From NCBI GenBank assembly GCA_016208585.1, contig JACQXR010000084.1:1-40256 (forward strand): DNA of 40,256 nucleotides, in the 5' to 3' direction. The stretch is from a candidate division TA06 bacterium (GTDB lineage: Bacteria > Edwardsbacteria > AC1 > EtOH8). Under the pieces are notes generated by a model that ran no database searches, had not been told where the DNA came from, and worked only from the letters and a program-made list of their open reading frames with translations. Of the stretch, positions 27,296-34,707 are shown one piece after another; position 1 is the stretch's first letter; every line of letters begins with the position of its first letter. Both the position numbers and the translations under genes were made by a program.

Positions 27296-27403
27296 TTTAT
27301 TCTCCGTTTTCTATTTGGATTTTATTTTTCGTTCACCAGAAACATGCATTTATCCATCAATGCTTATTAAGCGTCAGGCCGATATTTGGTTTGGCGGTCA
27401 TTG

Positions 27404-28144
27404 TTATCTTGCAATATTTGTTGGCGAAGTTATATCCGTTTCAGGCATCCTCATCCATATCTTGCCGTCAAGTATTTTGCCCGCTTTCTTCTTGTTGAAT
27501 CCGCCCCATTGTTTAAAGAAAAACGGCACTTTAGCTTTTATACATTGATCTCTCAATTCCCTGGCCCATTCGGGTTGCATGGGGCGCGCGCCCGGGCCGG
27601 ACTCGCCGCCTACTATCGCCCAATCTATACCGGTTAAATCAACCTTGCCAATCTGCTCCAGCAGGGGTTCAAAAGAAATGAACTTAACCTTGGCTTTGGT
27701 GGCGCGCAAGCTGTCTATCCTGTATAGATGCTCTTTATCTTCTACCGTTACCCCCATCCATACATTATCAGGCCAGGGCAATTCAGGAGCAATATCGAAC
27801 AACCGCTCGGCCCGCTTGGTTAGCGCTTGGTAAGTATGCCAATGGGCGCTCTCCATTACATTAAACACCCGTTGGATGAATGATACCGGCACGTTTTCGT
27901 GGAATAGATCGCCCATTGAATTAACGAAGATCATCCTGGGCTTGCGCCAGCCTAAAGGATAATCCAACATAGCCGGATGCGTCGTGACCTTAAACCCTTT
28001 CCTGTAATTATGCGAGCCCATAGCTTTCAGCCGTCTGGTCATTCGCTCGGCATAGCAATTGGCGCAACCCGGGCTGGTTTTGGTGCAACCTGTAACAGGG
28101 TTCCAAGTTGCCTCCGTCCATTCTATATGCGTATTAGTTGCCAT
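27404..28144 (-). CDS. Three-Cys DUF5131 protein (phage Gp37/Gp68 family)
   Basis: A 246-residue protein with the family's N-terminal signature EWTEATWNPVTGC and the cysteine triad Cys20, Cys27, Cys30 (CxxxxxxCxxC). These could hold an iron-sulfur cluster as in radical-SAM-like proteins; that chemistry is inference. Further conserved stretches are FVNSMGDLFHENVP, VWMGVTVEDKEHLYRI and WAIVGGESGPGARPM. It lies 5 bases after the TcmP gene, its usual neighbour. The family is found in phages and mobile or defence contexts; the biochemical role is not established to my knowledge. Confidence 0.9.
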   Translation of the reverse strand: MATNTHIEWTEATWNPVTGCTKTSPGCANCYAERMTRRLKAMGSHNYRKGFKVTTHPAMLDYPLGWRKPRMIFVNSMGDLFHENVPVSFIQRVFNVMESAHWHTYQALTKRAERLFDIAPELPWPDNVWMGVTVEDKEHLYRIDSLRATKAKVKFISFEPLLEQIGKVDLTGIDWAIVGGESGPGARPMQPEWARELRDQCIKAKVPFFFKQWGGFNKKKAGKILDGKIWMRMPETDITSPTNIAR

Positions 28145-28149
28145 AAGGT

Positions 28150-28983
28150 TTAACCGAACATGTTAGTTTGCGGGTTACCGTATTTTTTTGTTTCTTTCCA
28201 AAATGTTTTACCTAAATCATGTTTACTGAAGAAGGCCAACCTATATAAAGGCGCTTTCCTTTGTTGGTTTCTTACTAAAACTGATTCATGGTCTTCATTT
28301 TGCTTGTAACCCAAGTCCCCCATATGTTTGGAAAACTCACCGAGTACAAATAGACCAAAATTGGCGTTGGGTACTTTAAATTTTTCCCATCTATCTCTCC
28401 AATCAGAGTAGCCAATAAATTTTTCTACATTATTATTGCTTGGTCCTTTATAAGTATCTGCATTTCTTTTTGCATCCATATCTGTGGGTATCAATACTAA
28501 AAAATCTGTCCGCCGTGCTTTGGCTATTGCTTCGATAGTATTAAATGATAGATTGTCTAATTTATATGGGTCTGTAAAACAAAATGTCAAGACCTTGTTG
28601 TCTTTCCCTGGCACAGGGATATTGTCAATTATCGCCTCTGTAGACATATTTACATCGCCCACGATATAGCTTGCATCAATGTTGTGCTCGCCATTCTCAA
28701 CCCTTTTTTGCAGCGCCTTGAGCTTGGCTTCATCACTATCGCAAAATAGGTATTTGCTAAATTTATTTGAAAGTTTTATTGCTAATATCGGGGTGGATTC
28801 AACGATTTCACCTGTAGATTTGATTTTTGATCTACCAGCACCAGCAAATAGGTCAATATAAACAAGTGTATCCCATTTGTCCTTCATACTTCTGGTAAAT
28901 ATATCTGCATAATTTTGCATCAATAGATATTTACCTTTTGCCCAAATTCCTACTTCAGGTGTAATCAATCCATCGTCTTCCAT
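28150..28983 (-). CDS. tcmP: Three-Cys-motif partner protein TcmP
   Basis: The 277-residue protein matches the TcmP family: a start like GIWAKGKYLLMQNYADIF, a Rossmann-type VYIDLFAGAGRSKI loop (about 40-53), FCDSDEAKL, and FTDPYKLDNLS, which recalls the DPPY-type motif of N6 methyltransferases. I infer a possible nucleic-acid methyltransferase; this is not proven for the family. It is named for its frequent pairing with three-Cys proteins such as the next gene. The coding sequence is clearly richer in A+T than DUF5131 or the housekeeping genes, a sign of transfer. The gap to the R-M gene is 15 bases. Confidence 0.88.
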   Translation of the reverse strand: MEDDGLITPEVGIWAKGKYLLMQNYADIFTRSMKDKWDTLVYIDLFAGAGRSKIKSTGEIVESTPILAIKLSNKFSKYLFCDSDEAKLKALQKRVENGEHNIDASYIVGDVNMSTEAIIDNIPVPGKDNKVLTFCFTDPYKLDNLSFNTIEAIAKARRTDFLVLIPTDMDAKRNADTYKGPSNNNVEKFIGYSDWRDRWEKFKVPNANFGLFVLGEFSKHMGDLGYKQNEDHESVLVRNQQRKAPLYRLAFFSKHDLGKTFWKETKKYGNPQTNMFG

Positions 28984-28998
28984 AATAACTCCAATAAT

Positions 28999-31908
28999 TT
29001 AATTCCCCTCAATAACCTTCTTCTCCGCTTCATTCAGCCCATACAACCTATACACTAGTTCATCAATTTTACGGTCTATGGCGGCAATGTCGTGCTTATT
29101 GCGCTGGCGTAGTTCCGGGGTTTTGTTTTGCTTAAGCATTTCTTTTACTAAAACAACAAGCTGGTCGTGCATTGCTTTGTCTTTTTTGTTTTTAAAATCT
29201 ATTTTACGTATTGGCAACTGCAATACTGTTGTTTGCCTTAAATGCGGAAAAGCTATTTTCTTTTCTTCACCGTATTTTGCAAAATAATACTTAGACATAA
29301 GTTTAGAATTTAAAATACCCAGGTAATACTTCAAGTCATATATTGCTTGTTTATTTTTAAAGATGTAGATGACCTGTATAACATAGCTGTCCTTGTCTAA
29401 TGTTGCATTTATGCCTGTACCCGTTTTTCTTATAATAATTTTTTCGCCAACATATGATTCTGGTTGTTTATAATCAATATTTCTTGAACCTAATTTTAGG
29501 TAATGACAGCTATCGGTATAGTATCTACCCATGTCACCGCCGACTAAAAATTTAACATACCCTTCTTTTTTCTCTGTAAAAACAATACTGCTTTTTTTGC
29601 CTATTTCTACACCTCTTGCATTAGTTACAAAATCACCGTAATTTAAAGACGCTTCTTCTATTTTAGTAAAAATACTTGAAAGTTTATTGTTTTGGGTTAT
29701 TGAAAACAAATACTGCCCATCTTTAGCTATATTGCCTTGTAAGAGTTTGTTTGTTTTAAATATGCTAATTTTGTTTTCAATTTCGTACTTTACTTTGAAA
29801 GTATTTTTAATATTGTTTTTTTCATCGATTGACTTATCAAAAAATAACAACAGAGACGGCATTTTTACACCCTCAAATATTTTTTCACCCACATCAACGA
29901 TTTCAGTAATCCTTACTTTATGGGCCAAATATTTACGCAACATAATATAATCTGGATTCATTATCCACCTGCTGGGAACAATAAAACCAAATTTTCCGTG
30001 TTCTTTCATTACTTCATTGGATTTTTCAACAAAACAACTAAAGATGTCATATTGTTTTCTTGCCGTGCTGTATCTATGTTCGTAATATTTCTTGTTTGGC
30101 ATATCCATGAATTTTGACTGTATCCACGGCGGATTTCCAATCACTGCATCAAAGCCTTGCCCTGAGCGTGCCGAAGGGCCGCCCCCCACAAACACCTCTG
30201 GGAAAGCTACCTGATAATTGAACGGTTTCTGGTCTTTAACATCCTTGAAATAACCCCTCAGATTCTCATTCAAATCCCTGTTAAGCCCGCTTTCAAAAAC
30301 CTTTATGTTTTCCAACAGGTTTTCCTTGTCTTCTTCATCCTTGGCCCTGTGAAATTCATTCCGCAACTTGATAAGCTTGGGTATCTCCGGCTCGGCGTCA
30401 TACCAGGGAAACAACTCGCCCTCATGCTTCTTCTCGAACATCTGTCCCGATATCAGCGAATTGCCCTCCCTTATGTTAAGGCTTAAATTGGGCAGAAGTT
30501 TGTCGCCGGGCAGATCCCTCCAATTCAAGCCCTCCAATGCCTTGAGCATTAAATTAAGCTTGGTTATCTCCACCGCCCGCTCGTCAAGGTCAACGCCAAA
30601 CAGGTTGTTTTGCAGGATGGCTTTGGTTATGTCAAAATCCCGCATGGCCGCTGTCTGGCCTTTGTTCTTGGCCAGCTCGTAAGCCTTGTAAAAACAATCG
30701 AAAGCGCAGATCAGGAAAGACCCCGAACCGCAGGCCGGGTCCAGCACTTTAATTTTCTTGATTTCTTCGGTGGTCCGGACTTTAGCCAGTAACTCGCCCA
30801 CCGTATTTTTTACGATATAGTCAACTATATAATCCGGGGTGTAGTAAATGCCCTGGCTTTTGCGGTTTGTTTTAACCTGTACGTTTAAATCATCGCTCTT
30901 TCGGGCTTTGCGTAAAAGCTCGCCCAGATAGTTCTCGTAAACCTCGCCGATGATATGCACCGAGATGTCTTTGAAATCAAAATCGGTCACCTGCCTGACT
31001 ATGGGAGCTATGACCTCGTTGTCCAAAGCAAAATCGTCTATCGGCTGATGGGTGAACAGCTCGGTGTTGAACTTCTGCTCCATCTGCTTAAAGACGTTCT
31101 TAAGCTCTTTATAGGTGTTATCCTTGGTTTCCAGCACCGCCCTTAAATGATCCTCGTTTATTATGCCCTTGTCGTGGCAAACGTCCATAAAGATCAGGCG
31201 GTCCAATATCCGCTGGGTATAAAGGTCTATTTCGTCGGTATTATATTTGTCTTTATATTTGTGGTTGACATGGTTTCTTAAAGTTTCCCGCCAGCCCGTT
31301 AGTTTATTGAAGAATTTTGCCTTGGTATCGGCCAGTATAATTTCCTTGGGATAATACAGCGGATTGGGGTCTATCTTGCCTTTGTTGTGGCAAACATATT
31401 CCCGGCTGATCAGCTTTAAAAAAGCCAGGCCTTCGTCCGAAAGCAGATCAGTATAAAACCGCTTGTCGGCCTTGGGCCACAACAGAGAGTGAAAGGCATA
31501 CCTTTTGCCGTAAATATCTTTATGGACCACATTATATAGCCGCCATTCCACGAAGTTGGTCAGCACGCCCCAGTAAACCCCTTCGGCCCGGCAATAGCCG
31601 TAAAGCTGCTCTTCGAAGGTTTTTCTCTTTTTGCCTGAGCCGTAATAACCGTCAAGCTTATCAAGCTTCCTGGCATCCTTGCACTCCACCACCAGCATGT
31701 TGTCCTTGCTTTTGTCGTGCAAAACTATATCCGGGAAATTGCCGGTGTTCACGCCCTGGCTGGCGCCCTGCTGCCAGTCGCCATCCCGCCAGCCCAGCAG
31801 TTCCAAAACCTTGACCACATAACTTGACTGCACCTGCATCTCGGCCATGTGATGGATGTTGTTGGCCTGGGCCTGGGCCACTAATTTTTCAAGTTCTGCT
31901 TTTAGCAT
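28999..31908 (-). CDS. Single-chain restriction-modification enzyme (type IIG / Eco57I-like)
   Basis: A 969-residue fusion of nuclease, methyltransferase and specificity parts. A PD-(D/E)xK-like nuclease site is at about 57-78 (FPDIVLHD...VVECKDA). The N6-adenine methyltransferase has SAM motif I LDPACGSGSFL (about 387) and catalytic motif IV GNPPW (about 589). The remaining 380 residues are the target-recognition region and helical end. The first 600 codons have composition like the neighbours; the recognition part (below about 30110) is strongly A+T-rich. Just before motif IV, at 30156-30178, a dispersed intergenic repeat is translated as GPSARSGQG. The promoter region upstream holds the 21-bp array. 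The recognition sequence cannot be predicted. Confidence 0.93.
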   Translation of the reverse strand: MLKAELEKLVAQAQANNIHHMAEMQVQSSYVVKVLELLGWRDGDWQQGASQGVNTGNFPDIVLHDKSKDNMLVVECKDARKLDKLDGYYGSGKKRKTFEEQLYGYCRAEGVYWGVLTNFVEWRLYNVVHKDIYGKRYAFHSLLWPKADKRFYTDLLSDEGLAFLKLISREYVCHNKGKIDPNPLYYPKEIILADTKAKFFNKLTGWRETLRNHVNHKYKDKYNTDEIDLYTQRILDRLIFMDVCHDKGIINEDHLRAVLETKDNTYKELKNVFKQMEQKFNTELFTHQPIDDFALDNEVIAPIVRQVTDFDFKDISVHIIGEVYENYLGELLRKARKSDDLNVQVKTNRKSQGIYYTPDYIVDYIVKNTVGELLAKVRTTEEIKKIKVLDPACGSGSFLICAFDCFYKAYELAKNKGQTAAMRDFDITKAILQNNLFGVDLDERAVEITKLNLMLKALEGLNWRDLPGDKLLPNLSLNIREGNSLISGQMFEKKHEGELFPWYDAEPEIPKLIKLRNEFHRAKDEEDKENLLENIKVFESGLNRDLNENLRGYFKDVKDQKPFNYQVAFPEVFVGGGPSARSGQGFDAVIGNPPWIQSKFMDMPNKKYYEHRYSTARKQYDIFSCFVEKSNEVMKEHGKFGFIVPSRWIMNPDYIMLRKYLAHKVRITEIVDVGEKIFEGVKMPSLLLFFDKSIDEKNNIKNTFKVKYEIENKISIFKTNKLLQGNIAKDGQYLFSITQNNKLSSIFTKIEEASLNYGDFVTNARGVEIGKKSSIVFTEKKEGYVKFLVGGDMGRYYTDSCHYLKLGSRNIDYKQPESYVGEKIIIRKTGTGINATLDKDSYVIQVIYIFKNKQAIYDLKYYLGILNSKLMSKYYFAKYGEEKKIAFPHLRQTTVLQLPIRKIDFKNKKDKAMHDQLVVLVKEMLKQNKTPELRQRNKHDIAAIDRKIDELVYRLYGLNEAEKKVIEGN

Positions 31909-31980
31909 TTAAGGCCGTTTTTAGGTTAATTTACCCAACTTGTTGCTATTTTTAGTCTTATTACTACCATCCAAGGCTAA

Positions 31981-32280
31981 ATACTATGCACTTTGACCCA
32001 AATACCATATAAAATGTCCTAAATTACCCGGTAAACACCCTTAATACCATAGAATACGACCTCAATACCATGTCGGACGCCTCATATTCCGTGTATTATG
32101 ACCTTAATACCATGTAATATGCCCCATATTCCGTGGAATACGACCTCAATACCATGTAATACACCCCATATTCCGTGGAATACGACCCAAATACCATGTA
32201 ATATGCCCCATATTCCATAGAATACAACCTCAATACCATGTCATACGCCTATTATTCCATGTAATATGACCCTGATTCCG
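31981..32280. repeat. 21-bp tandem array of dyad sites upstream of the R-M operon
   Basis: Fourteen consecutive units of exactly 21 bases run from 31981 to 32274, with a partial unit to 32280. Two unit types tend to alternate: ATACCATGTAAT-type and ATTCCGTGGAAT-type, each followed by a 9-base tail like ACGACCTCA or ATGCCCCAT. The second type is a perfect dyad (ATTCC-GT-GGAAT); others are imperfect (for example TTAC-CCG-GTAA at the third unit). The period equals two turns of B-DNA, so sites would face one side of the helix. Units are best conserved in the middle and decay toward the R-M side. This looks like a multi-site binding region (operator or iteron), not coding sequence. Confidence 0.85.
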
Positions 32281-32281
32281 T

Positions 32282-32884
32282 CTACTTTGCATCTTTGTAC
32301 CCCCGTTTTAACGCCGCTTTATAGCGCAGATTTAAACTCCGGCCCAAGCCTTTTATTTTCATGGAATCGTAGGTGCATTGGCGGCAGAGCCGGGTGCCAG
32401 TCCGGCCGCCGGCGTCTAACTTCATATGTCCCACTCTTACGCTATTATTCAGCATCCACAGGACCAGGCCTATCTTCATGGTTCTGGCGTTGCCGCAACT
32501 GCGGCAGGTTATGACGACCGACTGGCGGTAAAGCACCTGGCGGCATTTGCCGCACAACTCGTTGCGGGGATCAACGGTATTGGGCCGGCGGGACCCGTCG
32601 GCCTCGTGTTTTTTCAAGAGCGTACGGCAGCGCGGACACCAGCCGTATTTCCCCGAACCCCGGTAGACTCGGGAGCCGGCTTGGGGAATCATGTCCTGGG
32701 CTATCTGGCGCACCCGTTCGCGGGTCAGGCCGTAATCGGCTCCGATCTTTTTGTATGTTTCGATCCCCCGGCTGACCCTGGCGGCAATGGCGGCGTTTCG
32801 TTTGGCCAGCCCTTTGACCTTTACCCCCTTTGGCCTCCCCCGGCCTTTGGACTCAGTCTGTTTTTTGCTTTTAAGTTTCGTCAT
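32282..32884 (-). CDS. Putative DNA-binding protein: AT-hook-like, sigma-4-type HTH and two zinc knuckle pairs
   Basis: A 200-residue basic protein that I do not recognise as a named family. It has GRGRPKG (14-20, AT-hook-like), then ETYKKIGADYGLTRERVRQI (42-61), the helix-turn-helix of sigma region 4.2. Four CxxC pairs follow (Cys83/86, Cys111/114, Cys127/130, Cys167/170), enough for two zinc sites. The stop codon is 2 bases from the 21-bp array, so the protein is an obvious candidate to bind it and control itself or the R-M operon; that is inference. There is no clear ribosome site before the ATG; a strong hairpin ends 20 bases upstream. Confidence 0.75.
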   Translation of the reverse strand: MTKLKSKKQTESKGRGRPKGVKVKGLAKRNAAIAARVSRGIETYKKIGADYGLTRERVRQIAQDMIPQAGSRVYRGSGKYGWCPRCRTLLKKHEADGSRRPNTVDPRNELCGKCRQVLYRQSVVITCRSCGNARTMKIGLVLWMLNNSVRVGHMKLDAGGRTGTRLCRQCTYDSMKIKGLGRSLNLRYKAALKRGYKDAK

Positions 32885-32903
32885 GCTGCAAAGTATTTCG
32901 GTT

Positions 32904-32930
32904 GGCGGCGCATGACAGCCATGCGCCGCC
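32904..32930. terminator. Strong hairpin between the 116-residue protein gene and the HTH/zinc gene
   Basis: A perfect 11-bp stem GGCGGCGCATG / CATGCGCCGCC with a 5-base loop. The T run (TTTT) lies on the plus-strand side, so on the minus strand it lacks a proper tail. It may act as an attenuator or mRNA-stabilising hairpin for the gene starting at 32884. Confidence 0.5.
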
Positions 32931-32950
32931 TTTTGCCTGTTATCCTGTTT

Positions 32951-33301
32951 CTATTTCTTAACCCTCGGCCCCTTGTGCGGCCTTAACATCCTGGGCGCGA
33001 TCCCGAACTCGCCCAGCTTCTCGCCGGTCTTGCCGTAGTTAGTCTCCAGGGTACTGACCCACTTGGCGATCTCGGTGGCCAGACCCTTCTTGGCCGCGAC
33101 GAAATCCACGGTGGACTGCTGGGCCGCAGCCTTGGCCTTTTCCTGGGTCGCGTCGGCGTTGTTGAAAGCATCCAACGCCTTCTGCAGGGAGACCGGGTCC
33201 AGCCCCCACTTGGCAACCTTGGCCTTGTTGCCCGTGCCGCCCTTGACAAGGTTGATGCCGCAGTCCTTGTAGTCGACGGTTGAGGAAAGTTTTTTCCGCA
33301 T
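32951..33301 (-). CDS. Small helical protein of unknown function
   Basis: A 116-residue protein, unrecognised. The middle (about 35-90) is an alanine- and lysine-rich helical or coiled-coil stretch (KALDAFNNADATQEKAKAAA), ending with LETNYGKTGEKLGEFGIAPR and a basic proline-containing tail (RPHKGPRVKK). Similar small proteins with a proline/lysine tail occur widely in FCB-type genomes, but I can name no family with confidence. A very strong ribosome site AAGGAGGAAGG precedes the ATG, suggesting high expression. The palindrome at 33331-33351 lies upstream. Confidence 0.65.
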   Translation of the reverse strand: MRKKLSSTVDYKDCGINLVKGGTGNKAKVAKWGLDPVSLQKALDAFNNADATQEKAKAAAQQSTVDFVAAKKGLATEIAKWVSTLETNYGKTGEKLGEFGIAPRMLRPHKGPRVKK

Positions 33302-33330
33302 GCCTTCCTCCTTGTGCGGTGTTAATGTTT

Positions 33331-33351
33331 GGGTATACCCTAATTTAGGGT
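33331..33351 (-). promoter_or_regulatory. Palindromic operator-like site upstream of the 116-residue protein
   Basis: Two overlapping palindromes: GGGTATACCC (33331-33340) and ACCCTAATTTAGGGT (33337-33351). On the minus strand TATACC could be a -10 box with TTCAGT 17 bases upstream, so a repressor bound here would cover the promoter. From 33352 to 33520 there is no gene, only CT/AG-rich imperfect inverted repeats (CCCCTCCC-type, about 33425-33490) around another GAGCCTGTC motif. Confidence 0.45.
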
Positions 33352-33520
33352 TTAACTGAACACATCAATTTTAACATTGAGCGCGGACAGTATCTATGCG
33401 TAAAGTTTATGACCTCCCCCATATCCCCCTCCCTTGGAGCCTGTCCTGAGTTATGCTTGCATAAGACTGGCGAAAGGAGGGGAGGGATAAAGGGTGGGGT
33501 CAACCGTTGCTCTGGCAAGG

Positions 33521-34489: not shown

Positions 34490-34527
34490 GGTCTCCCCCT
34501 GTTCCTGTTTACCATCTAGTGTTTGGT

Positions 34528-34615
34528 GTTTACTTGCCCTGAGCATGTCGAAGGGCTGTTTGATGTTTGACGTTTACTTGCCCCAAGTATGTCGAAGGGC
34601 TGTTTAGTGTTTGCC
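34528..34615. repeat. Two tandem 44-bp repeats with the CTTGCCCTGAGC core
   Basis: GTTTACTTGCC recurs at 34528 and 34572, each followed by a core such as CTTGCCCTGAGCATGTCGAA + GGGCTGTTT. The cores (34533-34555 and 34577-34599) match the stretch at 30156-30178 inside the R-M gene with 2 and a few mismatches. The spacer between hpf and hprK (34490-34707) holds nothing else recognisable. Confidence 0.7.
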
Positions 34616-34707
34616 GGTTACCGTTTACTAATGTAGATTCAATTTGCAATTTACGAATCATGGCAGTTGGCAACCCCAATTATCTGTTCCCTATTATCCG
34701 TTTCCGG

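Follow-up and report, generated by a model that had tools for sequence, protein, structure and literature searches.

The 21-bp array described here belongs to a family of modules not described before, in Candidatus Edwardsbacteria, that consist of a gene for a small basic protein and its own array of 21-base units. The array lies in a window of 40,256 nt (contig JACQXR010000084.1; the window is the whole stretch of DNA that was analysed), close to the gene for a 116-aa protein and upstream of an operon that begins with a type IIG restriction-modification (R-M) gene. As judged from sequence comparisons, the best explanation, at a probability of roughly 0.45, is a two-part module: the array would be its DNA half, and the 116-aa protein would bind this cognate phased array and control the adjoining operon.

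Structure of the array and of the surrounding locus

The array is intergenic, between the type IIG gene and a gene for an HTH/zinc protein (Table 1). Tandem Repeats Finder detects a period of 21 with 13.6 copies (31995-32279), the autocorrelation peaks at multiples of 21 only, and the segment score at lag 21 reaches 51.7, whereas 500 shuffled versions of this intergenic region never gave more than 12.5 at any lag from 10 to 45. The exact 21-base register given in the preliminary description is confirmed by these results, and a phased array does lie upstream of the type IIG R-M operon on the same strand. Higher-order periods of 42 bp (score 279) and 84 bp (score 340) are both stronger than 21, because two unit subtypes, ATTCC-GT-GGAAT and ATACC-AT-GTAAT, alternate. 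The 5'-most units (31976-32038) are degenerate. Internal dyads had also been proposed, and this was correct in part: four of the 14 units pair at least four of five arm positions (chance about 1.4% each), with perfect 5+5 dyads in two and one mismatch in two more, but symmetry across the whole window array is not significant (p = 0.09). It is significant at many sister arrays, and the dyad character is of a DNA-level kind, with no RNA-type G-U bias across the class.

Three familiar kinds of repeat were ruled out. A coding (heptapeptide) repeat would have to accommodate three to five stops per frame in all six frames, a CRISPR array does not fit units that run head-to-tail without spacers, and a type III toxin-antitoxin system (ToxIN) does not fit a next gene that encodes a type IIG R-M enzyme, nor the absence of an RNA-pairing signature.

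Table 1. Features of the window locus (window positions).
Feature	Position	Strand	Remarks
Island	27311-33490		116-aa gene, HTH/zinc gene, array and defence operon
DUF5131 / rSAM-like partner	27404-28144	-	PADLOC candidate defence gene PDC-M41B
TcmP (three-Cys-motif partner)	28150-28983	-	PADLOC candidate defence gene PDC-M41A
Type IIG R-M enzyme	28999-31908	-	Eco57I MTase + TaqI_C specificity; first gene past the array
21-bp-period array	31977-32289	-	about 14-15 units; cleanest at 31997-32290
HTH/zinc orphan protein, 200 aa	32282-32884	-	sigma-70 region-4-like HTH (residues 43-61), zinc-ribbon-like cysteines
116-aa basic protein, predicted helical	32951-33301	-	pI 9.9; in array-associated family A2; probably the array's cognate partner
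Possible promoter of the 116-aa gene	33368-33396	-	TAGATA-17-TAAAAT, extended -10; consensus match alone, near chance level

Two genomes of the same genus are syntenic with the window on both sides, but where the window has 27311-33490 they carry about 95-103 bp, and the segment is therefore regarded as one island. The TcmP and DUF5131 genes (27404-28983), next in line after the type IIG gene, are listed by PADLOC as candidate defence genes (PDC-M41).

The preliminary description put forward the HTH/zinc protein as the candidate for binding to the array and for control of the R-M operon. Its gene ends 3 bp from the array, and it has a sigma-70 region-4-like HTH; a different Zn-finger-like ORF also adjoins the array at the Hachiman locus of genome G001. 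This assignment now appears improbable, since searches of 60 other genomes and of viral contigs gave no relative of the HTH/zinc protein, and its gene is lacking at every one of the dozens of sister arrays. Only at the window locus does an HTH/zinc gene stand between the 116-aa gene and the array. Whether the array always accompanies it had been named as a check; in the relatives compared, the recurrent partner is instead the neighbouring 116-aa gene, which had not been singled out. Control of the R-M system by a C protein was also rejected, as neither small ORF matches a controller family in Pfam, NCBIfam or PADLOC. The 116-aa protein has no Pfam or NCBIfam match of any kind.

Period-21 arrays as a genomic class

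In 750 kb sampled from the same genome, 17 arrays were counted at period 21 and 19 at period 42, against 5-8 at 14, 28 and 35 (7-bp arrays) and 0-2 at the remaining lags; in these counts one match per lag is a run of N, and the 17 include some 7-bp arrays and some arrays within open frames, few in all. The counts given here draw on about 750 kb of such stretches and on targeted loci. The 21-bp arrays of L028 (C3) and L033 are in open frames, probably coding, and were excluded from the argument, with L028 still among the 17. No period-21 array was found in 341 kb from other phyla. Unit sequences vary between loci, and the non-coding arrays show uneven conservation along the unit, mostly without a three-base rhythm. 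In 12 of 22 arrays the dyads are stronger than in column-permuted controls (p up to 0.05). Their absence from several (C22, C89a and G002_C203) and the weak symmetry of the window array count against the two-part module.

The same genome carries another type IIG gene, a paralogue at C22. About 68 bp upstream of it lies a 21-bp array built from a different unit, and no HTH/zinc gene is present there. This paralogue gave rise to the idea that the units are recognition sites of the type IIG enzyme itself, which was dropped because many array loci have no IIG gene.

Some other insertions and repeats in this genome deserve mention. A glycosyltransferase gene and a 365-bp array (G000:C89:18909-20318; L040/L041) are inserted between mreD and the PBP2 gene of the cell-shape operon, and are missing from genomes of the same genus. 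Intergenic 7-bp arrays form a separate class (CTGTTTA, TGTTCAT, AGCAATG and AACAATG; L040:15663-15799, L049:7984-8253, L051:3567-3735 and L144:13987-14207), with a related sequence at 34520-34621 of the window, and resemble the heptamer repeats of Cyanobacteria and Beggiatoaceae.

Small basic proteins associated with the arrays

The 116-aa protein has paralogues in the same genome and homologues in genomes G001, G003, G005 and G009, and an array occurs within 1.5 kb at 12 of the 16 loci of this family. The four others comprise one with sub-threshold in-register dyads, one at a contig end, one with a partial gene and one without any array. In the second family, the C9/C31 type, all nine loci have arrays, in one case next to a disrupted copy of the gene; a further gene remnant, at C36, has none. 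The third, PQLLE (NCBIfam NF052641, a model with no functional description attached), has arrays at four of eight loci, and the 247-aa and 248-aa array neighbours of C2 and G002 are clear members. At control loci the figure is one of 23, that one being a 7-bp array, and lags of 18-20 and 22-24 give almost no arrays at the family loci. The three protein profiles cross-match weakly, and from this the families probably form one superfamily; the 116-aa family does not match the PQLLE model and its relation to PQLLE is only weak, and the 116-aa protein of the window gives no match above the curated cut-off of NF052641.

All array-associated family proteins are basic (pI 9.6-10.8). Counted from the stop codon of the family gene, the array on its 3' side normally starts after -1 to 186 nt, and one c9 ORF reads into its array. 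In the window the distance is 662 nt because the HTH/zinc gene intervenes. Unlike those of the other families, PQLLE arrays are 5' of the gene. At three loci of the window's clade, clade 1 (L196:13493-13903, L198:9624-9971 and L197:5702-6055), the 116-aa-family gene is preceded by a gene for a short secreted protein that contains Cys.

The family searches span 386 genomes, with ten in the phylum sample and mostly drafts among those compared; genes at array loci are our own ORF calls. When profile searches were extended beyond the phylum, neither the 116-aa family nor the C9/C31 family turned up outside this family of genomes, and PQLLE had one member outside it, without an array. The type IIG alignment, searched against genome contigs, matched only Edwardsbacteria and one MAG. 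A PDB search with the family profiles gave no relative and no recognised DNA-binding fold, which weighs against the two-part module. AlphaFold single-sequence models of the two small proteins reached pLDDT values of 50 and 54, and were left out of fold searches because of this low confidence.

Locus-specific units and conservation of the arrays

The units follow the proteins. Proteins that are at least 70% identical have units with a mean similarity of 0.61; all other pairs are at the background level of 0.35-0.37. The unit CTAACC-TWGG-TTAG is common to C31, C163 and G001:C11, and also to arrays on C8 and C34 that have no family gene alongside, while C140 and C9b have the common unit AAGGCAWATGCCTT. 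The existence of some arrays without an adjoining family gene counts against the two-part module; those that share the motif of a module with a gene (C8, C34 and C9b) look like sites acting in trans. One array with the C31 motif, 746 bp long with 35 units and no family gene alongside, is found in a proton-antiporter/hydrogenase-like operon (G000:C8:51338-52083; L145:11338-12083). If each paralogue recognises its own units, the G005:C4 protein set against AACGGGACCGTT units would be expected to prefer its own array.

Between two species, the C31 array is much better conserved than the adjoining coding sequence, and gains and losses within it mostly involve complete 21-bp units. The small gene at this locus (L065:4696-5130) seems frameshifted relative to G001, with the array intact. 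Arrays without function might also grow in the vicinity of these genes by slippage or unequal crossing over, and the whole-unit gains and losses, the higher-order repeats of 42, 63, 84 and 105 bp and the 7-bp arrays of the same genome are all in keeping with such a neutral satellite. Such an origin is nevertheless unlikely, given the single period, the tight pairing with one gene superfamily, the uneven conservation along the unit and an array at C31 that is better conserved than the coding sequence beside it.

The C31 array is situated after the stop codon and before a terminator-like hairpin and the promoter-like TTGACA/TATAAT of the next gene. This position, and the closeness of most arrays to the 3' side of a stop codon, would also suit tandem hairpins in the 3' UTR of the small-gene transcript, binding the basic protein or tuning the mRNA. 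This is a rather poor prospect: G-U mismatches are not enriched over A-C mismatches across the arrays (54:53), which favours a double-stranded DNA site over an RNA hairpin, RNA hairpins need no exact 21-nt register, and loops of 2-4 nt would be strained.

Genes downstream of the modules

Five of the six clade-1 modules precede defence systems, all different. Besides the type IIG and TcmP/DUF5131 genes of the window, these are a GajB-like helicase with NACHT-SduA (Gabija/Shedu-like, G009), Cas3-Cas5-Cas8c of CRISPR-Cas type I-C (G005), HamA and HamB (Hachiman, G001:C1), and HsdR and HsdS (type I R-M, G003); the sixth (G001:C14) precedes secreted proteins of no known kind. Members of the other families are followed by MTase and STAND-like genes (G001:C8), an MTase-Mrr gene (G005:C5), or IIG loci (G008, G002, G009 and C22). 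Deeper clades in the same genome precede genes for secreted proteins, MCP, integrase or FGE-type proteins, so the link to defence is strong in the window's clade but not universal, and with several modules ahead of non-defence genes the regulated target is not uniform. A role specific to R-M control, as first proposed, is too narrow for an array class that also precedes CRISPR-Cas, Hachiman, Gabija/Shedu-like and non-defence genes. In a separate observation, tblastn matches to the Sua5-LMWPc fusion cross TGA and TAG in both L128 and L129 (the Sua5/LMWPc fusion homologues of G002 and G001), which could be gene separation or an alignment effect.

That several modules head different defence systems suggests a possible shared control or docking element. 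In the sister species G005 and G009, synteny covers over 5 kb of upstream sequence, the small gene (96% aa identity) and the array. It ends at the far side of the array, where the cargo begins: CRISPR-Cas I-C in G005 and Gabija/Shedu-like genes in G009. Because of this boundary the main rival to the two-part module is a cargo-docking anchor, with gene and array together marking a recombination or integration boundary at which defence cassettes are exchanged, and regulation secondary or absent. The window module is part of an island that relatives do not have. On the other side, the loci showed no target-site duplication, recombinase or shared core site, units differ at nearly every locus, and many arrays adjoin ordinary genes. 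At C31, gene and array are present or absent between genomes as a unit by themselves, with no cargo. Docking is a serious alternative, with perhaps one chance in a handful.

Comparison with known systems

RptR, an R-M-proximal regulator of E. coli, is a small alpha-helical protein of 79 aa encoded first in a defence island, and binds three 9-bp direct repeats with a conserved palindromic TAGCTA core at its own promoter, mainly with type I R-M systems; multiple sites give stronger repression (PMC12255303). The modules described here share a predicted small helical protein (from a low-confidence single-sequence model) that heads defence genes at five of six clade-1 loci, and direct repeats with a palindromic core in many units. 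They differ in having up to 35 units of 21 bp, mostly 3' of the gene, with locus-specific cores and many types of defence system, and the arrays are not own-promoter repeats with a TAGCTA-like core. PDB matches of the family profiles included no RptR-labelled chain, in a library that may be without 9R2Z. In BrxR/WYL, one regulator family heads many defence systems and binds inverted repeats; BrxR is a multi-domain WYL protein with two operator sites and no arrays in the studied island (PMC9122601). The 116-aa protein, by contrast, has no Pfam match, and its family no WYL match. On the most economical reading, a small sequence-specific protein would cover its own phased array and in this way govern the operon past it, in parallel with RptR, which acts on the smaller scale of three palindromic direct repeats, and with BrxR in its range of defence types.

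The omega protein has a ribbon-helix-helix fold. In the Omega2-parS system of pSM19035, a small protein and arrays of 7-bp heptads have a partition role (PMC9499535). Small protein and short iterated sites are points of likeness, but no ParA-type context was seen at the array loci. Descent from a plasmid iteron origin or a ParB/omega-type centromere would account for the iteron-like two-turn spacing and the small basic partner. It is nonetheless very unlikely: no Rep, ParA or relaxase gene was seen beside the examined loci, where the neighbours of scanned arrays are defence, transport, secreted or unknown genes, and the dozens of chromosomal copies are unlike in sequence. The array DNA has no match in the phages, plasmids and viral contigs searched. 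TAACTGA heptamer arrays of Beggiatoaceae and Cyanobacteria are abundant intergenic tandem repeats of one period, and differ from the 21-bp arrays in being one fixed heptamer near start codons with no cognate gene (PMC4679880). No description of gene-array modules such as these was found in open-access papers.

Proposed mechanism and significance

In the two-part module, the 116-aa protein would be the protein half, and each paralogue would recognise its own unit sequence. With units at exactly two helical turns, bound dimers would align on one face of the DNA, and by cooperative spreading could cover the DNA that separates the small gene from the following operon with a nucleoprotein complex. 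This complex would then set transcription of that operon, most likely by repressing or gating it; in the window, the type IIG R-M/TcmP/DUF5131 genes.

The control of bacterial defence arsenals is poorly known, and few regulators common to unrelated systems have been described (BrxR and RptR). In the present case, type I, type IIG, CRISPR-Cas I-C, Hachiman and Gabija/Shedu-like systems all stand behind members of a single small protein family and their arrays. As the paralogues apparently have their own units, they provide a natural library of protein-DNA pairs at a fixed helical spacing, in which a recognition code and cooperative spreading are directly testable. Gene and array together may also serve as a marker for defence genes in uncultured bacteria. 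Slightly more tentatively than the two-part module itself, they may represent a new class of module in a candidate phylum, in which fast-diversifying small basic proteins with private arrays of two-turn pitch would form an interchangeable head piece, by which attached, unrelated defence systems are controlled or exchanged.
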